In this document: piece after piece, positions 26,068 to 31,972 of the stretch
How positions within the stretch are numbered: the stretch's first letter is position 1
Layout: every line of letters starts with the position of its first letter
NCBI GenBank assembly: GCA_016794165.1
Contig: JAEUKV010000215.1
Span: 1-37,134, forward strand
Origin: Rhodospirillaceae bacterium
Lineage (GTDB): Bacteria; Pseudomonadota; Alphaproteobacteria; Dongiales; Dongiaceae
DNA length: 37,134 nucleotides
Reading direction: 5' to 3'
Notes under the pieces: generated by a model
What the model was told of the DNA's origin: nothing
Databases searched by the model: none
What the model saw: the letters and a program-made list of their open reading frames with translations, nothing else
Position numbers and translations under genes: made by a program

Positions 26068-28104
26068 ATGTCCCGCGAGCCGCGTTTCGATCCCCTGTTC
26101 CAGCCCCTGAAAATCGGACCGGTCACGGCTCCCAACCGCTTCTACCAAGTACCGCATTGTTCCGGCATGGGTTTCGCCATGCCGGAGACCCTGGCCGCCA
26201 TGCGCGCGATGAAGGCGGCAGGCGGCTGGGGCGTGGTTGCCACCGAGTATTGCTCGATCGACCCCAGCGCCGACGATCTCCCCTCGCCCTATGCCACGAT
26301 CTGGGACCAGGGCGATGTCCGCAACATGGCCAAGATGACCGCGGGGGTGCACGCCCATGGATCGCTGGCCGCCATCGAACTCTGGCATGGCGGGTTCCGC
26401 TCCTCTAACCTCCTCAGCCGTGCCACACCGATGGGTCCGGTCAGCCAGATGGCCGGCAAGGCCCCGGTGCAGTCGCGCCGCATGGATCTGGCCGACATCC
26501 GCGACTATCGCCGCGCCCACCGGGCGGCGGCGCTGCGGGCGCGCGAGGCGGATTTCGACATCGTCTATGTCTATGCCGCCCACGGCTATCTCATTGCGCA
26601 ATTCCTCAACCGCCAGATCAACCAGCGCGACGACGGCTATGGCGGCAGCCTGGAAGACCGCGCCCGCATCCTCCGGGAATTGCTGGAGGAAACCAAGGAG
26701 GCGGTGGGCGACCGCTGCGCCGTCGCGATCCGCATCGAGATCGACGACGAAGTGACGCCGGGCAGTGATCCCCTCGGCGAGAAGCGCGCCCTTTTCGAGA
26801 TGATCCGCGAGCTTCCGGACCTCTTCGATGTCACCATCACGGATTACGGCCAGGAAATGGGTGTCTCGCGCTTCCACAAGCAGGGCTCGCTGGAGCCGTT
26901 CCTGACGGATGTGCGCAAGCTTGTCGGCAAGCCGGTGGTGAGTGTCGGCCGCTACACCGCCCCCGAGGCGATGCTGAGCGCCGTCAAGAATGGAATTGTC
27001 GACATGATCGGCGCGGCGCGACCCTCCATCGCCGATCCGTTCCTGCCCAACAAGATTCGCGATGGGCGCCTCGACGACATCCGCGAATGTATCGGCTGCA
27101 ACATCTGCTATGCCAGCGACATCCAGGGGGTGCCGCTGCGCTGTACCCAGAACCCCACGATGGGCGAAGAATGGCGCCGCGACTGGCACCCGGAGATCGT
27201 CGCCTCCGCGGCGAAACCGGAGAAAGTCCTGGTGGTCGGCGCCGGGCCGGCTGGCCTGGAGGCAGCCCTTACCCTTGGCCGTCAGGGCCATGAGGTCATT
27301 CTCACCGAAGCCAGCCGCGATCTCGGCGGTCGCGTGCTGATGGAATCGAAACTGCCCGGATTGCAGGAATGGATCCGGGTGCGCGACTACCGCGCCCATC
27401 AACTCTCGAAACTCGACAACGTCGCCATCTATCGCGAGAGCCGCATGAATTCTGTCGATGTGCACGAGATCGGTGCCGCCCATGTGCTGGTGGCGACCGG
27501 CAGCCGGTGGCGGAAATCCGGCCTCGGGCGCTATCATCTGAGCTCCGTTGCCAGCTTCGACGATCCGCGCACGCTCGGCCCCGAGGAGATCATGGCCGGG
27601 AAGCGCCCTGAAGCGGGACCGGTGATCGTGTTCGACGACGAAGGTTATCTGATGGCGAGCGCCCTTGCGGAACTGCTGGCGAAGGAAGGACGGGACGTCA
27701 CCTATGTCGCCACCGCCGGCCTCGTCTCCGCCTGGTCTTTCTACACCAACGAGCAGCACCTCGCCCAGGCGCGACTGATCGAGAGCGGGGTCCGGATCCT
27801 GGTCAGCCACGCCGTCACCGGACTGGTCGCGGGCGGTGCCGAGCTTGCCTGCGTCTTCACCGGGCGCAAGCAGGAACTGCCCTGCGCGGGTCTCGTACCG
27901 GTGACCTCGCGCGAGCCCAACGATGCCCTGTGGCGCGAGCTCGGCGGCGAGACCGGCGCTTTCTCATCGCTGCAACGCATCGGCGATTGCAAGGCGCCGG
28001 CCTTCATCGCCACCGCAATTCATGACGGCCACCGTGCAGCGCGCGAACTCGGCGTGCCGGCGCCGTTCAAGCGCGACCGTGCCCATGTCGACACCGTCCT
28101 ATGA
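26068..28104 (+). CDS. Trimethylamine/dimethylamine dehydrogenase-like iron-sulfur flavoprotein
   Basis: A 678-residue homologue of trimethylamine dehydrogenase (TMADH). The N-terminal old-yellow-enzyme barrel keeps the cysteine that bonds FMN covalently (C31 in VPHC), Y61 in TEYCSI, and Y169/H172 of the catalytic triad in VYVYAAHGYL. The [4Fe-4S] ligands are C341, C344, C347 and C359. The C-terminal part has the ADP/FAD-type Rossmann fold VLVVGAGPAGLEAALTL (about 388-404). From memory of TMADH, the bowl residues Trp264 and Trp355 are Tyr (260) and Asp (351) here, and the catalytic Asp267 is Glu (263), so the substrate is probably not trimethylamine. The ATG at 26068 has GAGG eight bases ahead. 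The gene overlaps the next start by four bases. Confidence 0.88.
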   Translation: MSREPRFDPLFQPLKIGPVTAPNRFYQVPHCSGMGFAMPETLAAMRAMKAAGGWGVVATEYCSIDPSADDLPSPYATIWDQGDVRNMAKMTAGVHAHGSLAAIELWHGGFRSSNLLSRATPMGPVSQMAGKAPVQSRRMDLADIRDYRRAHRAAALRAREADFDIVYVYAAHGYLIAQFLNRQINQRDDGYGGSLEDRARILRELLEETKEAVGDRCAVAIRIEIDDEVTPGSDPLGEKRALFEMIRELPDLFDVTITDYGQEMGVSRFHKQGSLEPFLTDVRKLVGKPVVSVGRYTAPEAMLSAVKNGIVDMIGAARPSIADPFLPNKIRDGRLDDIRECIGCNICYASDIQGVPLRCTQNPTMGEEWRRDWHPEIVASAAKPEKVLVVGAGPAGLEAALTLGRQGHEVILTEASRDLGGRVLMESKLPGLQEWIRVRDYRAHQLSKLDNVAIYRESRMNSVDVHEIGAAHVLVATGSRWRKSGLGRYHLSSVASFDDPRTLGPEEIMAGKRPEAGPVIVFDDEGYLMASALAELLAKEGRDVTYVATAGLVSAWSFYTNEQHLAQARLIESGVRILVSHAVTGLVAGGAELACVFTGRKQELPCAGLVPVTSREPNDALWRELGGETGAFSSLQRIGDCKAPAFIATAIHDGHRAARELGVPAPFKRDRAHVDTVL

Positions 28105-28553
28105 GCGAGATCTTCGTCGACGCCGATGCCTGCCCGGTCAAGGCCGAAATCATCCGCGTGGCCGAAAGGCACGGCATCGTCGCTCATATCGTCAGCAATA
28201 GCGGATTCCGCACCAATGCCAACCCGCTCATCCGCAACGTGCTGGTGAGCGACAAGTTCGATGCCGCCGATGACTGGATCGTCGCGCGGGCAGGCCCCGG
28301 CGACATCGTCATCACCGCCGATATCCAGTTGGCCGACCGTTGCCTCAAGGCCGGCGCCGAGGTGATCGGCAACACCGGCAAGCCGTTTACCGAGAACAGC
28401 ATCGGCACGGCGCTCGCCATGCGCGAGCTTTCCAGCCAGCTCCGCGACATGGGCGAAATCAGGGGCGGTGGGCCCATTTTTTCGCAGGCCGACCGGTCAC
28501 GTTTCCTGAATGCGCTGGAGGCGGCGGTGCAGCGAGCCAAGCGGCGTAACTAG
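28101..28553 (+). CDS. YaiI/YqxD family (DUF188, UPF0178) protein
   Basis: A 150-residue protein that starts IFVDADACPVKAEIIRVAERHG and contains GDIVITADIQLADRCLKAGAEVIGNTGKPFTENSIG, the two conserved blocks of the UPF0178 family. The acidic pattern (DADACP, TADIQLAD) resembles PIN/NYN nuclease folds, but no activity is established that I know of. Its ATG overlaps the stop of the flavoprotein gene (ATGA), so the two are translationally coupled. Its own stop overlaps the stop of the convergent nitrile hydratase activator gene (CTAG at 28550-28553). Confidence 0.9.
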   Translation: MSEIFVDADACPVKAEIIRVAERHGIVAHIVSNSGFRTNANPLIRNVLVSDKFDAADDWIVARAGPGDIVITADIQLADRCLKAGAEVIGNTGKPFTENSIGTALAMRELSSQLRDMGEIRGGGPIFSQADRSRFLNALEAAVQRAKRRN

Positions 28554-28894
28554 CGCTTCAACTCCACCGGCTGGCCGTGCGGCGTGTGTTCATAGGCCTC
28601 GACCCAGGCTGCCTTGCGCATGGCAAGCGCAGTCGCGTCGGTCAGCGCCTGTTCCTGTGCCAGCCTCTCGAGGGCATCCAGCGCCGATTGATAATAGGTT
28701 GCGGTCGTATCTGGGGCGCCCGCCTGACTGGCCCGGCGAATCTCGGCGCCCAGTGCCGCCGACCATTGCGCCGCGGAGAATCGCCCCTCGGCCACCAAGG
28801 CCGCGGCGAGCGCGATCACCTGGGCCTGCCAGGGCTCCGCGAAGGCCGGCTCGCCGTCGCGCGCTTTCAGCGGCGAAAGATCATCAGCGCTCAA
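28550..28894 (-). CDS. Nitrile hydratase accessory (activator, P14K-type) protein
   Basis: A 114-residue protein of the nitrile hydratase accessory family: DGEPAFAEPWQAQVIALAAALVAEGRFSAAQW near the start, then YYQSALDALERL and a C-terminal WVEAYEHTPHGQPVEL. In cobalt-type enzymes such proteins help deliver the metal and mature the alpha subunit (self-subunit swapping). No ATG is available in frame. The best start is TTG at 28894, which overlaps the beta-subunit stop by 11 bases and gives a normal length. The open frame extends to 29293, but that part is a shadow of the beta subunit. The order alpha-beta-activator matches other proteobacterial clusters. Confidence 0.85.
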   Translation of the reverse strand: MSADDLSPLKARDGEPAFAEPWQAQVIALAAALVAEGRFSAAQWSAALGAEIRRASQAGAPDTTATYYQSALDALERLAQEQALTDATALAMRKAAWVEAYEHTPHGQPVELKR

Positions 28895-29537
28895 GATAGC
28901 GCTCCCACAGATCGACGAAGATGCGGTCGCGGCGGCCGGCGGCTTCCGGCCACAGATCCGCCGCCTGAAAGGCGATCGTATAGAGCGGCTCAGCCACCTC
29001 CCGGCCCAGCGCGTTCTCATCCGGCACGATATGCGCCCCGCGACAGGCATGGACAATGCCGGGTTTTTCCATCGCATACCCGGGGAGGCGCGTATGGGCG
29101 ATGCCGCCGAGGCGGATCGTGCGGACCTTGTCGCCAATCGCGAAGGCCGGCGCCGTGTCGGCGGGCAGGCGGAAGTCCTTGGCGAAGCGGGCCGCCGCCG
29201 GTACATCGGCGGCACGTTGCGGCGGTGGCACGTCAGGCGCCCCGCGCTCGGCCTTGCCGCGGGCGATTTCTGCGACGCTGGCCCAGCCGTCATCCACCAT
29301 CATCGCCGCATAGACCTGCATCCACTGATCGAAATAGGGCCGGGTCAGGTAATCCTCGGCCGAGATCAGTTCGCGGACATGGCGCCACCAATCGAGGGTC
29401 CACCCCGGAGCACCGGTCATCGCCTCGTTGATGCCCCACATGCGCGCCTCCCAATCGGCATGAAACGGCGCTTCATCGGCATCCATCACCACGGCACCCA
29501 GACCGGTGCGGCCACCCATATCGTGAATACGGCTCAT
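28884..29537 (-). CDS. nthB: Nitrile hydratase beta subunit
   Basis: A 217-residue beta subunit that with the alpha subunit converts nitriles to amides. It begins SRIHDMGGRTGLGAVV, like the family's GxHDxGG start. The helical N-terminal half contains FHADWEARMWGI and YFDQWMQVYAAMM, and the C-terminal SH3-like barrel contains GDKVRTIRLGGIAHTRLPGYAMEKPGIV (in parts, about 135-165). The conserved Arg residues that contact the metal claw in known structures should lie here but I did not assign them. It starts three bases after the alpha stop. Length matches the family (about 210-230). Confidence 0.93.
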   Translation of the reverse strand: MSRIHDMGGRTGLGAVVMDADEAPFHADWEARMWGINEAMTGAPGWTLDWWRHVRELISAEDYLTRPYFDQWMQVYAAMMVDDGWASVAEIARGKAERGAPDVPPPQRAADVPAAARFAKDFRLPADTAPAFAIGDKVRTIRLGGIAHTRLPGYAMEKPGIVHACRGAHIVPDENALGREVAEPLYTIAFQAADLWPEAAGRRDRIFVDLWERYLER

Positions 29538-29540
29538 CGC

Positions 29541-30176
29541 TCAGGCCCTCGCCTTCAGCAGGTCCGTGCCGATCATGCTGTTGCGCGTGACGAGTGCCGC
29601 CAGGGCTGCCGCATCAAGGCCATCAGTGCCCTCCGGCCGTTGCGGCACCACCAGATAACGCAGCTCCGACGTGCTGTCCCAGACGCGGATCTCGACCTCC
29701 TCGCCAAGCGCGACTCCGAATTCCTTCAAGACTGCGCGTGGCTCGCGCACCACGCGGGCGCGATATTCCGCCGCCTTGTACCAGCCCGGTGACATGCCGA
29801 GGAGCGAGAAGGGATAACAGGAGCATAGCGTGCAGACGACCACGTTGTGGACAGTGTCGGTGTTCTCCACCGCGATCAGATGCCCGGTCGCGTGGCCCTG
29901 ATAGTCGAATTCGCGAATGGCGGCGGTGCCGTCGGCCAGTAGTTTGGCCTTGAAGGCGGGATCGGTCCAGGCCCGCGCCACCACATGGGCACCGCGCTTG
30001 GGCCCGATTTCCTCGGCATAGAGATCGATCCAGGCATCGATCGCGGCCGGATCGACCAGCCCCTGCTCCACCAGCAGGCTTTCCAGCGCCTTCACGCGGA
30101 GCGCCGGGTCGCTCGGCAGGTCACTGTGCAGATGGGCGTGGATATCGATGATCTTCTGGGGATCGTAGCTGGTCAT
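29541..30176 (-). CDS. nthA: Nitrile hydratase alpha subunit, cobalt type
   Basis: A 211-residue alpha subunit. The metal-binding claw is VCTLCSCY with C115, C118 and C120; Thr in the second position of CTLCSC is the mark of cobalt enzymes, whereas iron enzymes have Ser. In the family two of these cysteines are oxidised to sulfinic and sulfenic acids. The next block, PGWYKAAEYRARVVREPRAVL, is strongly conserved. A thiocyanate hydrolase gamma subunit is similar, but the separate alpha/beta pair plus activator favours nitrile hydratase. ATG at 30176 has AAGAAG upstream. It is 63 bases after the dehydrogenase gene on the same strand, so probably in one operon. Confidence 0.94.
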   Translation of the reverse strand: MTSYDPQKIIDIHAHLHSDLPSDPALRVKALESLLVEQGLVDPAAIDAWIDLYAEEIGPKRGAHVVARAWTDPAFKAKLLADGTAAIREFDYQGHATGHLIAVENTDTVHNVVVCTLCSCYPFSLLGMSPGWYKAAEYRARVVREPRAVLKEFGVALGEEVEIRVWDSTSELRYLVVPQRPEGTDGLDAAALAALVTRNSMIGTDLLKARA

Positions 30177-30239
30177 GATGCGGGCTTCTTGTGCTGGCGG
30201 TCATCCTCGCCGCATCTCACCCGAGATCGGTGACATGGG

Positions 30240-31172
30240 TCAAGGGCGCTCGACATGTCCGCGCAGCTTGAGCAGGTCGATCAGGAAACGGTCGCGTTCC
30301 GCCTCCAGCTCGGCGATCGAGCGGCCCGCGGCTTCACTCTCAATTCCAGCCACCAGTTTGGCCTTGATCTCGTCAGTGAGCTGTACCCGTCCCAGACTCA
30401 ACCAGCGCTTTTCCTGGCTGGGGCCCAGATGGTCGAGATAATGGCGGATCCCCCCCGCACCGCCACCCAGATGGTAGGTGAGATGCGTTCCCTGCACCGC
30501 CCAGCGCATGGCCGGCCCGTGGATCAGGGCCTCGTCGATATCGCCGACCTCGGCCACCCCTTCCGCCACGAGGTGCACCGCCTCCTGCCACAGGGCGGCA
30601 CCGAGACGGTTGGCAATGTGCCCCGGCATCTCGCGCTTGAGGCGGATGGTCACCTTGCCGATGGCGCGGAAGAAATGCTCGGCCCTGTTCAGGATACCCG
30701 TATCGGTGCCGAACAGTTCTACCAGCGGCATCAGATGCGGTGGATTGAAGGGATGGGCGATGATGATGCGCGCCTTGTTGAAGCAGTCAACCGTCATGTC
30801 GCTGAGCAGTAGCGAGGAGGTGTTGCTGCCGATGATTGCCCCGGGACCAGCTGCGGCGTCGATCTCGGCCAGCAGGTCAATCTTGAGACCCAGCCTCTCC
30901 GGCGCGCATTCCAGCACCAGATCGGCATCCATCACGGCGACCTCAAGCGTGTCCACGATCGCCACCTGGCCACCGGCATCCGCCCGCAATTCCGCCAGCT
31001 GGCGCCTGAGTTTCTGCACCACGTCCTGGAGCTCATCACGCCGCTGGGGCGAGGGATCGTAGGCGGTGACCCGCAGGCCCCGGCTGGCACAGAGCGCCAT
31101 CCAACTGGCGCCGATCAGGCCGCAGCCGATGACGGAAATACGGTCGATACCGCGGAATTTCTGCTCTGGCAC
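30240..31172 (-). CDS. 3-hydroxyacyl-CoA dehydrogenase family protein, carnitine/L-gulonate dehydrogenase-like
   Basis: A 310-residue NAD-dependent dehydrogenase. The N-terminal Rossmann fold has ISVIGCGLIGASW (12-24). APERLGLKIDLLAEID, SNTSSLLLSD and the catalytic His in AHPFNPPHLMPLVELFG follow, and the C-terminal helical domain has HGPAMRWAVQGTHLTYHLGGGAGGIRHYL in two parts. The RWA/GGxxGxRHxL features and the short single C-terminal domain are closest to carnitine 3-dehydrogenase and lambda-crystallin/L-gulonate dehydrogenase, rather than to beta-oxidation FadB-type enzymes. The start is GTG at 31172, two bases after the binding-protein stop. The substrate is probably a free 3-hydroxy acid, not certain. 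Confidence 0.85.
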   Translation of the reverse strand: MPEQKFRGIDRISVIGCGLIGASWMALCASRGLRVTAYDPSPQRRDELQDVVQKLRRQLAELRADAGGQVAIVDTLEVAVMDADLVLECAPERLGLKIDLLAEIDAAAGPGAIIGSNTSSLLLSDMTVDCFNKARIIIAHPFNPPHLMPLVELFGTDTGILNRAEHFFRAIGKVTIRLKREMPGHIANRLGAALWQEAVHLVAEGVAEVGDIDEALIHGPAMRWAVQGTHLTYHLGGGAGGIRHYLDHLGPSQEKRWLSLGRVQLTDEIKAKLVAGIESEAAGRSIAELEAERDRFLIDLLKLRGHVERP

Positions 31173-31174
31173 GG

Positions 31175-31972
31175 TCAGTTGATCGCGTCCTGCCCATAGC
31201 GTCGCTGGATCGCGCCAAATGTACCATCCTCGCGCATTTCGGCAATGGCGGCATTGATCCGCGGCAGCATCGCAGCCGTGTCCGGCACTTTCCGGCTGAG
31301 ACAGAGATAGTAGGGCGAGCTGCGGAGTTCGGTATAGGCGATTTCGCGTGTACTGCTGTCGCGCAGGATGAAGTTGATCGGCGCGGCGAAGGAGTAGAGG
31401 TGGTCGAAGCGCTTTTTCAGCAGCATCTGATAGGCCTGCTCGTCGCCGCTCACGGCCTGATAGGGAATCCGCGCATCCGCGAGTTCGTCCTCGAGATTGT
31501 AACCTTTGACCACGCCGACGCGGTGGGCTTTCAGATCGTCGATCTTCGCCACCGGTGGATAGCGTCGGTCGGCTGCGCTGAAGACGCCGATCGACGTCTC
31601 ACCGATCGGCTCCGAGAAGTAGAACAGTGCCGTGCGATCTTCGCGATACGAACAGGAACACAAGCCGTCGATGATGCCGTCGCCGGCCTCGGCGTAACCG
31701 CGCTTCCACGGCATGAAGCGCGGCTCGAGGCGCAGGCCCGTGCGCCGCGCGATCTCCTCGATCACCTCGACGTCACTACCCTGCAGACCGTCGGCCCCCG
31801 GATTCTCGATCTTGAGGGGAGGAAAATCGTTGCAGGCCAAAACGACAGTGCGTTCCTCTGCTGCTGCGGCCGCCATGCTCACTCCCTCGCACAGGCCGAG
31901 CGCAGCCACAGCCAAGACTAGATGCCAGGCTGCACGACGCAAGATTGTTCGCTGTGAGGATTTGGTGAGCAT
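31175..31972 (-). CDS. Periplasmic solute-binding protein, family 3 (amino-acid type)
   Basis: A 265-residue protein with a signal peptide (LVLAVAALGLCEGVSMAAAAA, cleavage near residue 38). The mature part is a family 3 binding protein: LACNDFPPLKIENPGADGLQGSDVEVIEEIARRTG (in two parts from about 45), then FSEPIGETSIGVFS, HRVGVVKGYNLE and the hinge region with PYYLCLSRKVPD. Such proteins deliver amino acids or other small polar molecules to ABC importers; related orphans can act as sensors. No permease or ATPase gene is near. The stop is two bases ahead of the dehydrogenase start, so the pair is coupled and the protein probably binds a compound related to that enzyme's substrate. Confidence 0.85.
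   Translation of the reverse strand: MLTKSSQRTILRRAAWHLVLAVAALGLCEGVSMAAAAAEERTVVLACNDFPPLKIENPGADGLQGSDVEVIEEIARRTGLRLEPRFMPWKRGYAEAGDGIIDGLCSCSYREDRTALFYFSEPIGETSIGVFSAADRRYPPVAKIDDLKAHRVGVVKGYNLEDELADARIPYQAVSGDEQAYQMLLKKRFDHLYSFAAPINFILRDSSTREIAYTELRSSPYYLCLSRKVPDTAAMLPRINAAIAEMREDGTFGAIQRRYGQDAIN

Follow-up and report, generated by a model that had tools for sequence, protein, structure and literature searches.

A YxxEM subfamily of TMADH/HADH-family dehydrogenases that likely acts on an amine other than trimethylamine or histamine

Introduction

A close homologue of trimethylamine dehydrogenase (TMADH) with a changed aromatic bowl raises the question of whether it still acts on trimethylamine or serves another substrate. 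The gene lies in a stretch of 37,134 nucleotides from a Rhodospirillaceae bacterium (contig JAEUKV010000215.1, assembly GCA_016794165.1), the whole of which is called the window here. An earlier note on this DNA had found two of the three bowl aromatics changed and had proposed a different substrate. Our analysis indicates that this observation was largely right, with its emphasis partly wrong and its conclusion of another substrate probably right.

Results and Discussion

The dehydrogenase gene and its product

The gene is an open reading frame of 678 codons without internal stop, with an ATG start codon and a GAGG ending 8 bases before it.

26068..28104 (+): TMADH/HADH-family dehydrogenase, YxxEM subfamily, 678 aa (PDB sequence search, Pfam, structural comparison, tree)

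Pfam placed Oxidored_FMN at residues 10-335, followed by pyridine nucleotide-disulphide oxidoreductase domains, and no NCBIfam model scored above its cut-off on this protein. The PDB sequence matches were 3k30 (E 3.1e-197), 6l6j, 6de6 and 1djn (E 1.5e-160), the nearest solved structure by sequence being the histamine dehydrogenase (HADH) 3k30. A structure model built from 43 sequences had a mean pLDDT of 89.2; although the model was good overall, the loops 261-270 and 341-350 reached a mean of only 58. The model matched 6l6j, 2tmd, 3k30, 1djq and 6de6 with Z values of 49.0-51.0, and the next protein, 2-naphthoyl-CoA reductase, gave 42.6. The gene can safely be placed in the TMADH/HADH family of iron-sulphur flavoproteins: the OYE barrel and the nucleotide-binding domains run over the full length, and the FMN cysteine, the four cluster cysteines and the equivalents of Tyr169, His172 and Arg222 were found by alignment. 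The predicted architecture is an N-terminal OYE-type barrel, a putative 4Fe-4S cluster on C341, C344, C347 and C359, and C-terminal nucleotide-binding domains.

Residues of the active site

The codons of interest are given below; clade rows are the 78 rows of the alignment described in the next section.

26158..26160 (+): codon of C31, predicted 6-S-cysteinyl-FMN cysteine (TMADH Cys30), by alignment; C in 78/78 clade rows
26248..26250 (+): codon of Y61 (TMADH Tyr60, HADH Gln65), by alignment; Y in 76/78 clade rows
26383..26385 (+): codon of W106 (TMADH Trp105); W in 70/78 clade rows
26398..26400 (+): codon of R111 (TMADH His110, HADH Asn115), candidate carboxylate or anion contact, from the clade alignment
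26572..26589 (+): codons of Y169, H172 and Y174 (TMADH Tyr169, His172, Tyr174), by alignments
26845..26859 (+): codons of Y260, E263 and M264, the clade signature (TMADH Trp264, Asp267, Ala268), by alignments and tree
27088..27144 (+): predicted 4Fe-4S cysteines C341, C344, C347 and C359, by alignments
27118-27120 (+): codon of D351 at the Trp355/Asp358 place, by count from the cysteine and comparison with HADH

Pairwise alignment with TMADH (1djn) confirmed the residues that the earlier note had listed as kept: C31, Y61, Y169 and H172 correspond to Cys30, Tyr60, Tyr169 and His172, and C341/344/347/359 to Cys345/348/351/364. R222 is also conserved. C31 is predicted to hold FMN covalently. The same alignment paired Y260 with Trp264 and E263 with Asp267, again as had been claimed. 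The third proposed replacement, Trp355 by D351, required another approach, since the aligners put a gap at Trp355 and paired D351 with TMADH Glu356. The gap arises because TMADH has one extra residue between the third and fourth cluster cysteines, so that the placement relies on counting from the cysteine and on the comparison with HADH. D351 is four residues past the third cluster cysteine, the same spacing as for Trp355 of TMADH and Asp358 of the HADH of N. simplex, in agreement with the original assignment.

Of the three bowl positions two differ from TMADH, but a ring is lost at the Trp355 place only. Both Y61 and Y260 carry an aromatic side chain, as do Y75, W106, Y169 and Y174, and the exchange of Trp264 for Tyr is conservative, since an aromatic ring stays. 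Y174 is the residue of TMADH and also matches N. simplex HADH. Judged from the sequence, D351 is the HADH-like state at its position, and with Y61, W106 and Y174 the pocket is otherwise closer to that of TMADH.

Asp358 is listed among the proposed histamine-binding residues of N. simplex HADH, and the Asp354 at that place in Rhizobium histamine dehydrogenase is sensitive to mutation (PMC10180351). In our alignment Asp or Asn was common at position 351 outside the clade (19 Asp and 11 Asn in 34 rows). We considered the Asp at the Trp355 place as a novelty and rejected this, since the position is occupied by Asp or Asn in HADH and throughout most of the family. The suggestion that an Asp in the bowl marks a smaller or additionally charged amine stands only in part: an additional charge would agree with an Asp of the HADH kind and with the polyamine-type importers described below, but Asp or Asn is usual outside TMADH and tells little by itself.

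The YxxEM clade

A scan of species genomes returned at least 573 relatives, and the best 79 distinct loci, the near part of the family, were kept. The alignment contained 112 rows, of which 78 were clade rows picked by Y260 and E263, and 34 were other family members. L006 and L008 (remote), L060 (broken frame) and L010, L011 and L091 (the same genes as L037, L038 and L012) were dropped before counting and tree building; L040 and L083 were kept with an X at a stop, and L007, a C-terminal fragment, was left out of the alignment.

Among the matches listed, Y260-x-x-E263-M264 was found in 78/78 clade rows, whereas E263 and M264 were each found in 0/34 of the others. Y174 was present in 78/78 and Y348 in 77/78 clade rows; M264, Y174 and Y348 had played no part in selection. 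The Y/E/M combination is more than chance. When the active-site segments were removed, the 78 rows needed one change on the tree (SH-aLRT 94), and with the active-site columns included they formed a clade of 79 rows, one duplicate gene among them, with a support of 99. The clade has a single origin, even without the active-site columns. Since Y/E/M is fixed across the clade and the origin is single, the Trp264-to-Tyr and Asp267-to-Glu exchanges are fixed, old changes. Among the matches listed, the clade spans Alpha- and Gammaproteobacteria, Acidimicrobiaceae, Myxococcota and one Desulfococcaceae record, the sequences being mostly from metagenome-assembled genomes. Hence, the gene of the window is a member of a populous subfamily and not an oddity.

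Two positions are less uniform. R111 is Arg in 12/12 rows of the window's subclade, in 57/78 clade rows and in 1/34 others, and position 351 is Asp in 63 and Asn in 15 of the 78 clade rows. As R111 and D351 vary, one substrate for all members is unlikely, and the variation suggests several substrates within the clade. In two clade members, L086 and L101, the Tyr60 place is taken by Trp.

On the tree 1djn and L028 form the TMADH branch (support 100); the protein of the window falls outside it and does not group with the known histamine dehydrogenases either, as L004 and L034 do. The YxxEM enzyme is likely neither TMADH nor HADH, and so likely uses another substrate. One alternative is a trimethylamine or dimethylamine dehydrogenase of the usual kind, able to work with a changed bowl. 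Such an enzyme could be expected from Y61, W106, Y169, H172, Y174 and R222, all as in TMADH, and from the aromatic Y260; against it stand the position outside the TMADH branch, the missing Trp355 and the Glu in place of Asp267. In addition, TMADH Tyr442, presumably part of the ETF interface, is R437 in the window protein, and Arg is also found in HADH. We regard this alternative as improbable.

We found no account of the YxxEM clade in the literature searched, which is weak evidence as subscription journals were mostly beyond reach. Relatives in the plasmid collection are annotated merely as FAD-dependent oxidoreductase or NAD(P)-binding protein.

Surroundings of the gene in the window

The earlier note had taken the adjoining YaiI gene as co-translated and had pointed to a nearby nitrile hydratase operon. 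The first gene does overlap the dehydrogenase.

28101..28553 (+): YaiI/YqxD family protein (DUF188), synteny neighbor; its start overlaps the dehydrogenase stop by 4 bases (ATGA)

Upstream lies a divergent DEAD-box helicase, and downstream YaiI is followed by convergent genes for the nitrile hydratase accessory, beta and alpha proteins, a 3HCDH protein and a solute-binding protein. The 3HCDH protein is carnitine-dehydrogenase-like (243.6 bits, under the cut-off of 414). The order helicase, dehydrogenase, YaiI, nitrile hydratase beta/alpha, 3HCDH and solute-binding protein is kept in the window, in D. mobilis (L037) and in genome G003 (L116). The block is absent at the R-7 orthologue (L038), so that it is kept in 3/4 of the orthologue-bearing Dongia-type genomes examined, and it was not seen elsewhere. 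The nitrile hydratase genes are close, as claimed, but they are convergent on the opposite strand and so belong to another transcription unit; with the block missing at L038, a functional link was rejected. YaiI and nitrile hydratase beside the dehydrogenase are lineage synteny, not functional evidence. As a side observation, the nitrile hydratase genes with the 3HCDH and family-3 solute-binding proteins (28550-31972, reverse strand) form an unusual partner set for this enzyme.

Gene neighborhoods across the clade

In order to survey the clade, flanking genes were called crudely as the longest open reading frames, picked by cross-locus support. Neighbors were named by Pfam and NCBIfam in examples and by phmmer from those examples elsewhere. 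The resulting sets lean toward close homologues of the examples, which are counted among their own matches, and the fractions below refer to the best 79 of at least 573 loci on these terms.

The recurrent neighbors were a PotF/PotD-like binding protein, PotG/H/I-like ABC parts, a BetI-type TetR regulator, an MttB-superfamily methyltransferase, DAO-GcvT demethylases and a GbcA-like Rieske oxygenase. A polyamine-type permease or binding protein was found at 26/79 loci and a methyl-handling enzyme (MttB, GbcA-like Rieske or GcvT type) at 22/79. Either was present at 39/79, both at 9/79 and neither at 40/79, several of these 40 being short contigs. The BetI-type regulator occurred at 17/79 loci and an aldehyde dehydrogenase at 8/79. 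Over the 71 clade loci placed on the tree, the labels changed 11 times for Pot, 4 for MttB, 3 for Rieske, 9 for the GcvT type and 6 for BetI. The links thus recur, although co-inherited clusters are not independent of one another.

Ten genomes (44.5 Mb) served as background for 1.03 Mb of flanks. They contained 114 Pot-type permeases, so that about 2.6 were expected in the flanks, compared with PotH-type genes at 23/79 loci. Of their 51 MttB-like proteins, one reached at least 500 bits and was the copy linked in L057; close MttB was found at 8/79 loci against about 0.02 expected. Both links are well above background. The GcvT-type link is weak and modest in size (12/79 loci, about 3.5 expected from 152 matches in 44.5 Mb), such oxidases being common in the background genomes. 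For the Rieske proteins, of which the background held 54 at E 1e-20 and four at 300 bits or more, the link comes down to a handful of loci, L045, L084 and L086, and L045 and L084 had themselves supplied the queries.

Two members of the window's 12-row subclade illustrate these arrangements. In L045 a GcvT-type gene, a GbcA-like Rieske gene, PotF/G/H/I-like genes and the YxxEM gene follow one another on one strand, and in L043 an MttB gene lies directly upstream, ending 12 bases before the YxxEM gene. Plasmid pW43C of Parasedimentitalea marina provides one more Rieske case, its YxxEM gene being accompanied by two such oxygenases as well as by an ABC importer, an aminomethyltransferase and a TetR regulator. 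At the loci of the window gene and of its Dongia-type orthologues there are no polyamine-type importers or methyl-handling neighbors.

These neighborhoods bear on two further alternatives. The polyamine-type importers (PotF/G/H/I-like) found beside the clade would suit an HADH-like deaminase of di- or polyamines, in which D351 would hold the far cationic group, a role proposed for Asp358 in histamine dehydrogenase, while the primary amine is converted to an aldehyde and ammonia. The aldehyde dehydrogenases noted above and HADH 3k30 as the nearest solved sequence point the same way. So does the Asp at the place of HADH Asp358/Asp354, and agmatine and putrescine are further substrates of N. simplex HADH (PMC10180351). 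However, HADH Gln65, Glu79 and Ala110 are replaced by Y61, Y75 and W106, the MttB, Rieske and GcvT neighbors have no evident role in the breakdown of a primary amine, the importers fall short of the named cut-offs (342 compared with 636 bits for PotF), and the same genome already has L004, a homologue placed with Rhizobium histamine dehydrogenase on the tree. We consider a deaminase possible but rather unlikely. It is very improbable that the flavin enzyme has given up amine dehydrogenation and performs another redox reaction on the same scaffold, as in the OYE/dienoyl-CoA reductase relatives. Such a change is suggested by the Glu in place of the catalytic Asp throughout the clade and by the reductions of the wider fold family, but Tyr169 (78/78), His172 (78/78) and Arg222 (77/78) are kept, and amine-type neighbors accompany the 39 loci mentioned above.

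Proposed function

Our preferred reading, to which we give an even chance, is a dehydrogenase with covalent FMN and a 4Fe-4S cluster that removes a methyl group from a tertiary amine other than trimethylamine, the tertiary amine being derived from a betaine-like quaternary amine. The enzyme would oxidize a C-N bond of the methylated tertiary amine, R-N(CH3)2 giving R-NH-CH3 and formaldehyde. FMN would accept a hydride equivalent from the amine, the 4Fe-4S cluster would pass electrons one at a time to a carrier, which is ETF in TMADH, and the iminium would be hydrolyzed by water. R would be larger than methyl and would probably bear a charge, and it may be held by D351, R111 or both in the room left by the missing Trp355. 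In the relatives, a polyamine-type ABC importer would take up the quaternary parent compound, and an MttB-type methyltransferase or a GbcA-like Rieske oxygenase would remove the first methyl group.

Quaternary ammonium compounds lose a methyl group to MttB-type enzymes and to GbcA-like Rieske oxygenases and become tertiary amines, and TMADH demethylates a tertiary amine. From its place and family, the simplest reading is that the YxxEM enzyme may take the next methyl group. The gene of the window gets this reading only through its clade, as its own locus is without such neighbors. N-methyl amino acids, which the earlier note proposed for assay, or betaine-derived amines fit the conserved R111 and the Rieske, MttB and GcvT neighbors. 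The different substrate proposed in that note is made likely by the position outside the TMADH branch, the lack of Trp355 and clade neighbors for larger methylated amines; the Asp and the Trp264-to-Tyr exchange on which it had leaned carry little weight. In marine roseobacters the MttB relative MtgB demethylates glycine betaine (PMC12478193).

More tentatively, and at somewhat less than an even chance, the YxxEM clade may comprise tertiary-amine demethylases that are not yet described and that round off a modular betaine-like pathway in Proteobacteria, Actinomycetota and other groups. A polyamine-type importer would come first in this pathway, a Rieske or MttB enzyme second and the YxxEM enzyme third, and positions 111 and 351 would differ between branches to suit the methylated compound of each. 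The fixed three-residue signature and the recurring neighbors give a testable assignment for a common enzyme group, which probably feeds on methylated amines, a source of nitrogen and one-carbon units. They also call for caution, as not all close TMADH homologues should be named TMADH.

Related genes in the same genome and elsewhere

The genome of the window has four further close relatives of the dehydrogenase gene. L005 and L007 (G000:C176, C224) are probably one TMADH-family gene split over two contig ends. L118 (with L003) is a paralogue adjoining an MttB-like protein, and L121 (with L007) one adjoining a Rieske protein and a BetI-type regulator. L004 (G000:C240:3737-5785) has the same residues as Rhizobium histamine dehydrogenase at the 17 key columns compared. 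Elsewhere, L124 (Leisingera thetidis pBMJM1_4) is a TMADH-family gene of another group (Trp/Asp), flanked by the choline-sulfatase gene betC on one side and on the other by an ABC importer with betB. The family member L125 (Mesorhizobium sp. B2-1-8 plasmid) has Ala at the FMN-cysteine place, like 6l6j; a trimethylamine methyltransferase family gene comes after it, and an ABC importer lies nearby.

Comparison with known systems

The protein of the window resembles HADH (N. simplex 3k30, Rhizobium sp. 6de6) in its fold, FMN cysteine, cluster cysteines, Tyr/His/Arg residues, the Asp after the third cluster cysteine and the Arg at the TMADH Tyr442 place. It differs from 3k30 in having Y61, Y75, W106, Y260 and E263 for Gln65, Glu79, Ala110, Trp267 and Asp270, and in its separate clade; of the HADH residues Gln65, Glu79, Trp267, Asp358 and Asp270, only Asp358 has a kept equivalent, D351. 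With 6-hydroxypseudooxynicotine amine oxidase/dehydrogenase (Pno, 6l6j) it shares the fold and domain order (Z 51.0). Pno acts on a methylamino compound and hands electrons to ETF (PMC7688666); unlike the window protein, for which covalent FMN is predicted, it has Ala at the FMN cysteine, non-covalent FMN and Trp/Asp at 260/263.

TMADH (Methylophilus W3A1, 1djn/2tmd) is similar in fold, Cys30, Tyr60, Trp105, Tyr169, His172, Tyr174, Arg222 and the cluster cysteines. The window protein differs in the Trp264-to-Tyr, Asp267-to-Glu and Tyr442-to-Arg exchanges, the lack of Trp355, shorter loops at the Trp264/Asp267 and Trp355 places and a separate clade. In sequence alignment the bowl Tyr60/Trp264/Trp355 reads Tyr/Tyr/no aromatic, the catalytic Asp267 is E263, and the two do not group on the tree. 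Dimethylamine dehydrogenase presumably has Gln60, Thr74 and Phe105, where the window protein has Y61, Y75 and W106. Finally, DgcA of the dimethylglycine-type systems presumably has no covalent-FMN cysteine, and these systems (DgcAB, GbcAB and MtgB) resemble the YxxEM enzyme in the proposed second-methyl step after a Rieske or MttB enzyme.
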